Of a stretch of 21,928 nucleotides of DNA, positions 3,973-15,312 are shown one piece after another. Both the position numbers and the translations under genes were made by a program. The stretch comes from a virus. Within the stretch, counting starts at the first letter, position 1; each line of letters begins with the position of its first letter. The stretch is taken from positions 1-21,928 of the IMG/VR virus record IMGVR_UViG_3300025815_000130. One strand, given 5' to 3'. Below the pieces are notes generated by a model, which saw only the letters and a program-made list of their open reading frames with translations, had not been told where the DNA came from and searched no databases.

Positions 3973-4289
3973 ATTTTACAGACTGGAAAGCTGAGTTAGA
4001 AGAACATGGATACGTAGTTACTGAAGACACTATCACTACACAACGTGGTGATGTACTTGCAGGTAAAGACCCATATGGTGGATATTACATTAGTGACTCA
4101 CGTATTCAAGACATTGTAAGTAAGAAACCTAGCAAGGTTAAGAAGGTAACTAAAAAAGTTAAGAAGGTAGCAGAAGCTGCCACTGAACTTGTAATGGAAC
4201 GTGCTCGTGACAAGAATGGACATTTTATTGCAGATGATCCTGACACTGAAGTTAACGAAGCATGGGTAGTTAAAACTAAGAAAAAATAA
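3969..4289 (+). CDS. Hypothetical protein with lysine/valine-rich linker (106 aa)
   Basis: Residues 1-50 look like a small folded domain (FTDWKAELEEHGYVV and GGYYISDSRIQDIV). Residues about 52-68 are a Lys/Val repeat (KPSKVKKVTKKVKKV), and the C-terminal part (RARDKNGHFIADDPDTEVNE) is acidic. That last stretch resembles the ends of other marine phage small proteins. It overlaps the previous gene by 4 bases (ATGA) and the next by one. Function unknown. Confidence 0.65.
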   Translation: MNFTDWKAELEEHGYVVTEDTITTQRGDVLAGKDPYGGYYISDSRIQDIVSKKPSKVKKVTKKVKKVAEAATELVMERARDKNGHFIADDPDTEVNEAWVVKTKKK

Positions 4290-4648
4290 TGACCCAATAT
4301 TCAATAGGTAAACCAGCACGTAGGAAGTCTGTCTATGGTCACAATGAAACCACAGCAGTAGAAGACGTGTATACTTGCCCTGCTAACTGTACAGCAGAAG
4401 TTACATATATCCTTGTAGCTAATGGTGGTGGTAGCACTAATGATGTCACTATTCAGTGGTACGTAGCAGCAGATGCTTATACGTCACACTTCCTAAACGA
4501 TAAGAGTTTAGCTGGTAATGGCTATCACGAGTTCTCTACTATTGACCTTGTATTACAACCAGGTGATAAGATTCAGATAGTACCTAATGCAGCAGGACAC
4601 ATTGATAGCATTGTTACTGTAACTGAAACGTTTGTACCTATTGGTTAA
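4289..4648 (+). CDS. Small beta-sandwich virion protein, decoration-like (119 aa)
   Basis: The product is almost all predicted beta strand. It starts by overlap with the preceding stop (TAATG). After a basic leader, its strands VYTCPA, ILVANGGGS, LVLQPGDKIQIV and IVTVTE line up in order with VYTVPA, LTVANITAS, KIVLETTDIIKV and IVSVLE of the 110-aa protein at 20743-21075, so the two are probably paralogues. Small beta-sandwich proteins of this size often decorate capsids or sit on tails; the exact place is inference. It ends the first small-gene run and is followed by a promoter-bearing gap. Confidence 0.65.
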   Translation: MTQYSIGKPARRKSVYGHNETTAVEDVYTCPANCTAEVTYILVANGGGSTNDVTIQWYVAADAYTSHFLNDKSLAGNGYHEFSTIDLVLQPGDKIQIVPNAAGHIDSIVTVTETFVPIG

Positions 4649-4660
4649 TGCATAACGGGG

Positions 4661-4697
4661 TTGCATTATTGTCTATAGTATGTTATAACTATATATG
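4661..4697 (+). promoter_or_regulatory. Rightward promoter P3, for the DUF1127 and lysis genes
   Basis: TTGCAT (4661-4666), 17 bases, then TATAAC (4684-4689) continuing as TATAACTATATATG. That 14-mer is identical to the one in the coat-protein promoter at 15078. Transcription would start near 4696, just before the hairpin at 4700-4749. Confidence 0.6.
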
Positions 4698-4699
4698 AT

Positions 4700-4749
4700 A
4701 TAACTATCTCTGGTAGCAAAAGTTACCGATAACATAAGGAGATAGTTAT
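4700..4749 (+). promoter_or_regulatory. Leader hairpin sequestering SD and AUG of the DUF1127 gene
   Basis: ATAACTATCTC (4700-4710) pairs perfectly over 11 bp with GAGATAGTTAT (4739-4749). The right arm contains part of the AGGAG ribosome-binding site and two bases of the start codon. Inside is a second hairpin, GGTAGC-AAAA-GTTACC (4712-4727, one G-U pair). With a start near 4696, the extreme 5' end of the transcript would mask its own translation start. Confidence 0.65.
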
Positions 4750-5032
4750 GAAAGAATGGTTTAAAAAAGTATTTGTTGCCTTTATTGAGGCACGTCAGGC
4801 TGAAGCAAATCGTCGTATTGCAGCAATGCATTTGTATCGCATGACAGACCGTGAGCTAAACGATATTGGCATTGGTCGTGGAGATATTAAACGAGTTGTC
4901 TATGAAACCGAGAACGAAGTCAAAACTGAAAAACAAGGCACCAATAGTCCGAAAAACAAAAACAATGTCTCGTGGCGGCAGTACATCTACAGTAAACTCG
5001 GCTGGGAACTACACAAAGCCAACCATGCGTAA
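4748..5032 (+). CDS. DUF1127 domain protein (94 aa)
   Basis: Residues about 15-52 carry the DUF1127 signature, ARQAEANRRIAAMHLYRMTD and RELNDIGIGRGDIKRVVYE. This is a small-protein domain common in alphaproteobacteria. Members there are linked to stress and sRNA networks, and Rhodobacter CcaF1 is reported to bind RNA. Residues 53-94 are an extra polar tail; its last 22 residues overlap the next gene in another frame and look like chance read-through. An AGGAG site precedes the ATG, buried in the 4700-4749 hairpin. It is an unusual cargo between structural-type genes and a candidate host-manipulation gene. Confidence 0.8.
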   Translation: MKEWFKKVFVAFIEARQAEANRRIAAMHLYRMTDRELNDIGIGRGDIKRVVYETENEVKTEKQGTNSPKNKNNVSWRQYIYSKLGWELHKANHA

Positions 5033-5153
5033 AAACTTGTTCAACAAGATTAAAGCAGGTAGTAAGGGTGGAAGTGCAGGTCAATGGTCTGCACGTAAAG
5101 CACAAATGTTAGCCAAGCAGTATAAATCTGCAGGTGGTGGATATAAGAGCTAA
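4965..5153 (+). CDS. Small basic marine-phage protein (62 aa)
   Basis: The start at 4965 (MSRGGSTSTVNSAGNYTKP) is preferred over an upstream in-frame one because the conserved-looking part begins there. The body MRKNLFNKIKAGSKGG, then GQWSARKAQMLAKQYK and a Gly-rich end, is a compact basic protein I recall from marine phage contigs without a known function. Its first 68 bases overlap the DUF1127 gene in a different frame, an unusually long overlap for this genome, which suggests the DUF1127 gene arrived later and runs to the first available stop. Confidence 0.75.
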   Translation: MSRGGSTSTVNSAGNYTKPTMRKNLFNKIKAGSKGGSAGQWSARKAQMLAKQYKSAGGGYKS

Positions 5154-15055: not shown

Positions 15056-15091
15056 TTGACATATAAGTTATTTATGATATAACTATATATG
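15056..15091 (+). promoter_or_regulatory. Rightward promoter P4, for the major coat protein
   Basis: TTGACA (15056-15061), 16 bases, then TATAAC (15078-15083) continuing as TATAACTATATATG. Perfect -35, near-perfect -10, same spacing as P1 and P2. Transcription would start near 15090 and give a leader of about 220 bases before the coat gene. Confidence 0.7.
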
Positions 15092-15312
15092 TATAGTTTA
15101 ACTGCTACACCTCAATATATGACTACTGTAGCAGTTTCACATTTTTTAGCAAACAATATGACTTTACGGATTACCTAATACGTATGGCCCATATAACACA
15201 TTTTGTAACTGATCATTACATTTTGTGATCTATATGCACCCATAGACGATTAGCCTCTATACTAAGTAATAAAGTTTTGCATCTGTAATCTAAATGCTAA
15301 AGGAGTTTTATC
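15092..15312 (+). promoter_or_regulatory. Long leader of the coat protein mRNA
   Basis: About 220 bases without an ORF separate P4 from the coat ATG. Besides the hairpin at 15100-15136, GATCA (15211-15215) and TGATC (15226-15230) form a small inverted repeat that contains TTTTGTGATC, also present at 2014-2023 in the control region. A strong AAAGGAG lies just before the ATG. I see no known riboswitch. Confidence 0.4.
15100..15147 (+). terminator. Hairpin with T-run just after promoter P4
   Basis: AACTGCTACA (15100-15109) pairs perfectly over 10 bp with TGTAGCAGTT (15127-15136) around a 17-base loop. TTTTTT follows at 15142-15147 after five bases. It could terminate transcripts from the scaffold gene. 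It also lies within about 10 bases of the predicted P4 start, so it may act on coat transcripts as an attenuator or stabilising 5' hairpin. Confidence 0.5.

Follow-up and report, generated by a model that had tools for sequence, protein, structure and literature searches.

In the fold-back inhibition of the IS10 transposase, read-through RNA sequesters the ribosome-binding site (RBS), whereas the element's own transcript does not. In phage T4, the Shine-Dalgarno (SD) sequence and/or AUG of genes e, soc and 49 lie within a helix in long upstream transcripts, and gene-adjacent promoters give transcripts that are devoid of the 5′ strand of that helix (PMC3014915). Likewise, for I-TevI, I-TevII, I-TevIII, segB and Aeh1 mobE, a late promoter is sited such that the late RNA cannot form an RBS-masking hairpin (PMC2988022). 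Control through the mRNA leader is also strong in a DUF1127 gene of Sinorhizobium meliloti, where it takes the form of uORF-dependent transcription attenuation (PMC12218461); bacterial DUF1127 proteins are reported to bind PhoR (Agrobacterium, E. coli) and to restrain phosphate uptake, and one of them, CcaF1, to bind RNA (PMC12501420). Here we describe the leader of a phage-borne DUF1127 gene that we propose, with a probability of roughly three in four, to be a promoter-choice translational gate on that gene. To our knowledge, there is no earlier description of such a gate, either on a DUF1127 gene or from the HMO-2011-type roseophages. In the literature we found no transcript map or transcriptome for HMO-2011-type roseophages, and the two roseophage papers searched for the isolates considered here mention neither DUF1127 nor promoters.

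The window (the whole 21,928-nt stretch of viral DNA that was analysed, IMG/VR record IMGVR_UViG_3300025815_000130) is closest to Roseobacter phage CRP-1 (90% DNA identity across the leader and gene, and gene order), an HMO-2011-type podovirus infecting marine Rhodobacteraceae. The DUF1127 domain recognized in the initial annotation, which was made from the sequence alone, is borne out by a profile match to Pfam PF06568 (34.2 bits, above the cut-off of 23.3), and eight diverse phage relatives score 24.7–36.9 bits, all above the same cut-off. The protein encoded in the window is short, basic and Arg-rich, with 7 Arg within residues 1–51 (counted from the translation); Arg content in the family averages 14% (PMC12501420). 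Phage DUF1127 proteins range in length from 46 to 94 aa, most of the variation being accounted for by a C-terminal tail (4899–5032 in the window) that differs even among close relatives. The features of the locus that are referred to below are as follows:

4289–4648, + strand: upstream gene, on the same strand as the DUF1127 gene; candidate source of read-through RNA
4650–4666, + strand: upstream element GCATAACGGGGTTGCAT, with the palindrome-like sequence GCATAACGGGTATGC; its CGG at 4656–4658 is the spacing anchor
4661–4689, + strand: P1, sigma70-like TTGCAT-17-TATAAC (TTGCAT 4661–4666, TATAAC 4684–4689); predicted start ~4696
4699–4704, + strand: −10 box TATAAC of P2, inside the left arm, with a TG 2–3 nt upstream (TGATATAAC); predicted +1 ~4711
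4700–4710, + strand: left (masking) arm ATAACTATCTC, ending at the predicted P2 start
4712–4727, + strand: inner hairpin GGTAGC-AAAA-GTTACC (from the fold); would be the 5′-terminal hairpin of the P2 transcript
4736–4741, + strand: Shine-Dalgarno AAGGAG; the start codon ATG is at 4748–4750
4739–4749, + strand: right arm GAGATAGTTAT, which runs from the 3′ half of the SD through to the AT of the start codon
4748–5032, + strand: DUF1127 protein gene (94 aa; domain at residues 14–47; Pfam PF06568)
5025–5153, + strand: next gene, phage family phrog_17747; its ATG lies within the 3′ end of the DUF1127 gene, an 8-nt overlap

The genes preceding the DUF1127 gene in the window are small and on the same strand, and no terminator-like site was found upstream of it between 4289 and 4700. 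Its overlap with the next gene is matched by that of gp59/gp60 in CRP-1. Downstream, all on the same strand, come small unknown genes followed by those for endolysin, spanin, terminase, portal and capsid; the earlier description of the gene as sitting among structural-type genes holds only loosely. In other isolates the small terminase gene comes directly after the DUF1127 gene or one to several genes further on, and because of this position ahead of the terminase we regard the DUF1127 gene as heading the lysis and packaging block.

The two arms of the leader hairpin, ATAACTATCTC and GAGATAGTTAT, are exact reverse complements, as the initial annotation had stated in proposing an 11-bp perfect helix, and its claim that the helix covers part of the SD and start codon likewise agrees with the coordinates, the right arm covering the GAG of the SD and the AT of the ATG. 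Folding supports the structure as a whole: the segment 4690–4800 has a predicted energy of −29.1 kcal/mol, which 0 of 200 shuffled sequences matched (z −3.96). When upstream sequence is scored for its exact complementarity with the initiation region, the DUF1127 gene reaches 11 nt in both the window and CRP-1, whereas the other genes tested reach at most 7 nt in the window and at most 8 nt in CRP-1; thus, the leader helix is unique among the genes examined in these two genomes. An Rfam search of the window returned no match to a known RNA family. The inner hairpins differ among relatives, some of which have none.

We drew on viral contigs and isolates for the leaders of DUF1127 genes in phages, choosing start codons by SD match. 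The leaders, which fall into 61 clusters, came in two sets, the second of which (89 leaders) was gathered after the hypothesis had been formed. The best helices across the leaders take 67 distinct sequence forms, and the arm pairs differ by clade: ATAACTATCTC/GAGATAGTTAT in the window, ATAATTACCT/AGGTAATTAT in L088, TATATGTAC/GTACATATA in L038, GTATAACTCCT/AGGAGTTATAC in L154 and AAACTCTCCTTAGT/ACTAAGGAGAGTTT in L091. Across 19 right-arm clusters, cognate arms form duplexes of −13.5 kcal/mol on average, against −8.9 kcal/mol for mismatched arms, and 0 of 100,000 arm-swap permutations were as good as the cognate pairing, a value to be read as strong rather than exact since the clusters are related by descent. 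Within one gap-free group of leaders, 95.3% of cells pair (37–59% in slid controls), and 8 cells are changed on both sides, at three pairs; the isolate CRP-3 (L090) shows a clean C-G to U-A change within the helix. G-U pairs and bulges are tolerated in the helices of relatives, and the helices of the GTTCA/TGAAC group (L049, L064) are weak. Conservation and covariation of the arms had been named in the initial annotation as the test by which its proposal could be refuted; the permutation, the 67 forms and the gap-free group all came out in favor of the hairpin, and the alignments indicate that an RBS-masking helix is kept by covariation in the relatives.

The initial annotation had further given the gene its own promoter and placed the hairpin close to the resulting RNA start. 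P1 is indeed present, and RNA initiated there at ~4696 would meet the left arm about 4 nt later, as claimed; within the window it even looks like a better sigma70 promoter than P2, which is without a clear −35 box. A dedicated promoter is thus retained from that account, but the position conserved in the relatives is that of P2, whose TATAAC inside the left arm the annotation had overlooked, and not that of P1, with a TATAAC at the P1 position in only 17 of the 61 leader clusters. By contrast with this sparse distribution, GCATAACGGG or a near copy of it occurs in nearly all leaders, and in more than 140 of them (61 clusters) the −10 hexamer (variants TATAAC, TAAAAC and TATAAT) begins 38–42 nt after its CGG, a spacing that is followed by 88 of the 89 leaders of the second set. 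The upstream element of the relatives is often a palindrome, GCATA-N5-TATGC, and its distance to the −10 box is fixed in about 60 leader clusters. This CGG/−10 promoter motif has a single site in the window and a single site in CRP-1, with none elsewhere in either. At a distance of ~53 nt before the predicted start, the GCATAACGGG element is a plausible activator site, and the segment 4650–4666 may accordingly be a candidate site for a phage or host activator. The masking arm lies just 3′ of the −10 hexamer in L038 and 5′ of it in four further clusters (L082, L091, L130, L039), with the hexamer still present in each case; since it is retained where the masking arm shifts away, the P2 hexamer appears to be an independent promoter element. 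A few relatives (L088, L090, L072, L130, L233) display a second inverted repeat around the −35/−10 region, for example CACCTAATTAGGTG before the −10 box in L088 and GTGGTATAATGAAACCAC in L130, where the −10 box lies in the loop; this is possibly another candidate regulator site.

The boundary between the promoter and the masking arm was delineated by setting the predicted +1 at 7 nt past the hexamer, with hexamer+12 as the first transcribed base. In the first set (mean of 29 clusters), pairing to the RBS, from SD to AUG, is strongest between hexamer+6 and +12 and drops sharply at +13; 39 second-set clusters show a value of 0.15 at +13 and none from +14 onward. When the 61 clusters are taken together, the partners of 10.0 out of 10.8 paired RBS bases lie at or upstream of the predicted start. 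The predicted consequence is a marked difference in SD accessibility: over the 61 clusters, read-through RNA has an unpaired probability of 0.14 and own-promoter RNA one of 0.69, and the SD is freer in the own transcript in 58 of the 61 (Wilcoxon p about 10⁻¹¹, for clusters that are not fully independent by descent), with L113, L117 and L129, where it is no freer, as the exceptions. Shuffling the left, upstream part gives intermediate values of 0.47–0.50, and composition therefore does not fully account for either the masking or the release. In the window itself, the GGAG at 4738–4741 is predicted to be unpaired at 37 °C with a probability of 0.06 when the left arm is present and 0.97 when it is not, the start codon being partly paired in both transcripts. 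However, taken singly, the window and several relatives have shuffled left parts that mask the SD nearly as well, and for this reason much of the evidential weight falls on the comparative set. A chance origin of the hairpin was considered and is ruled out by the fold z-score, the arm permutation, the uniqueness of the helix and the SD accessibility comparison.

Taking these observations together, the gate would operate as follows. RNA arriving from the upstream same-strand genes would carry both arms and form the helix, which would hide the SD and start codon such that DUF1127 would not be made, and we infer that this read-through RNA is silenced at the level of translation. RNA from P2, on the other hand, would begin at the end of the left arm, could not form the helix, and would leave the SD free; DUF1127 would hence be made only upon the firing of P2, presumably activated through the GCATAACGGG element. 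As the arm ends at the predicted P2 start, it should be contained only in read-through or P1 RNA. Expression is probably late, given that the lysis and packaging/structural block begins with this gene. In the phages bearing P1, RNA initiated there would be masked too, and start sites separated by only some 15 nt would lead to opposite translational fates.

The reading implicit in the initial annotation, namely that the gene's own transcript masks itself and has to be opened by a thermometer, an sRNA or a protein, is not supported, given the placement of the conserved −10 box inside the left arm: the own transcript is predicted to be without the arm, the masking strand ending at the P2 +1. For this reading to hold, the main transcript would have to come from P1 at ~4696, with the whole hairpin serving as its leader. 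P1 does fit TTGCAT-17-TATAAC with an extended −10, and its RNA, starting ~4 nt before the left arm, would be masked (SD unpaired 0.06); nevertheless, the P1-like TATAAC is confined to those 17 of 61 clusters, whereas nearly all clusters have the helix and P2, and the own transcript cannot include the arm in L082, L091 and L130, where the conserved −10 box comes after it. Opening of the masked form by temperature finds no support from the predicted SD exposure, which goes merely from 0.03 at 10 °C to 0.07 at 42 °C without melting of the helix, leading us to reject an RNA thermometer; the negative Rfam result for the window also speaks against the self-masking reading. Altogether, we consider it unlikely as a general account, although a self-masked P1 transcript may occur in the 17 clusters with the upstream TATAAC.

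The left arm shares bases with the −10 box and the repeat is perfect in many phages, which could alternatively be taken to mean that the inverted repeat is a DNA operator at which a dimeric protein represses or activates the promoter, with RNA pairing being incidental. The comparative data make this very improbable: the arms vary in sequence by clade and tolerate G-U pairs and bulges, the right arm tracks the SD, and the −10 box and start codon are separated by anything between 33 and 64 nt over the 61 clusters, which is compatible with RNA pairing. Moreover, the palindrome at 4650–4666, with its fixed spacing, is a better operator candidate than the arms. Least probable of the readings weighed is that the helix mainly stabilizes the mRNA or slows its decay, with RBS masking as a side effect; here the predicted P2 transcript of the window and many relatives does open with the inner hairpin, in the manner of 5′ stabilizers, but the left strand of the outer helix is missing from that very transcript, and the outer helix lies consistently over the RBS, at a cost to translation.

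The promoter-choice gate appears to be a feature of a particular genomic setting. The Cobavirus-type DUF1127-like genes of CRP-6 and SIO1 (L092, L093) stand beside MazG and RNR genes, and neither the CGG/−10 element nor the leader was seen there; since these copies are without the CGG/−10 element, the gate would belong to the HMO-2011-type late block. The DUF1127-like ORF of SIO1 is unannotated. At 19 bacterial DUF1127 loci of the Rhizobiales type, a sample with no Rhodobacteraceae gene, the same leader was not found, the longest exact helix being 6 nt.

Elsewhere in the window, upstream of the major capsid gene (15313), there is a sigma70-like promoter, TTGACA...TATAAC, at 15078 (region 15056–15150), directly followed by a strong hairpin at 15100–15136 and then by a T-run. 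The stem is AACTGCTACA/TGTAGCAGTT in the window and GGTATCTGT/ACAGATACC in CRP-1, and because the sequence differs at the same place this 5′ leader hairpin seems to be conserved by structure.

If correct, the gate model extends T4-style gating to marine HMO-2011-type roseophages, with 61 leader clusters offering deeper comparative support than a single phage lineage, and sequence alone suffices for it to make precise predictions of 5′ ends. A further implication is that these phages actively prevent the early production of DUF1127, whose family has lately been linked to PhoR and the control of phosphate. Why a phage needs a DUF1127 protein, and why only at that time, are questions testable in cultured phages such as CRP-1, CRP-3 and CRP-13 with their hosts. 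As a tentative scenario, to which we assign a rather low likelihood, early production would be harmful and DUF1127 would stay silent until its own promoter fires, whereupon the protein would act on a target conserved for DUF1127 proteins, for instance the sensor kinase PhoR or host RNA turnover, to set the host's phosphate or stress state for the late phase, with two promoters ~15 nt apart having opposite fates in part of the group.

The DUF1127 leader is, at the level of sequence, a real, conserved and well-supported regulatory leader, predicted to work in the manner of the read-through-silenced leaders of T4 rather than as a self-masking switch. In T4 gene e, the late box TATAAATA lies within the 5′ strand of the structure, and in the phage leader described here TATAACTA does likewise; yet the two belong to different phage families and differ in gene and promoter, and the silencing of gene e, about 100-fold, is measured, whereas that of the DUF1127 leader is predicted. 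The I-TevI-type leaders serve homing endonucleases, i.e., mobile genes, while the present one precedes a small DUF1127 protein with a standing position in the late block. Similarly, IS10 is a transposon guarding against outside promoters, as opposed to the timing device in a phage genome that we propose. Unlike the S. meliloti attenuator, which uses a uORF, the short phage leader is without an apparent uORF. In our model, the gating is by the choice of promoter, as in T4 gene e and I-TevI, and not by temperature or ligand.
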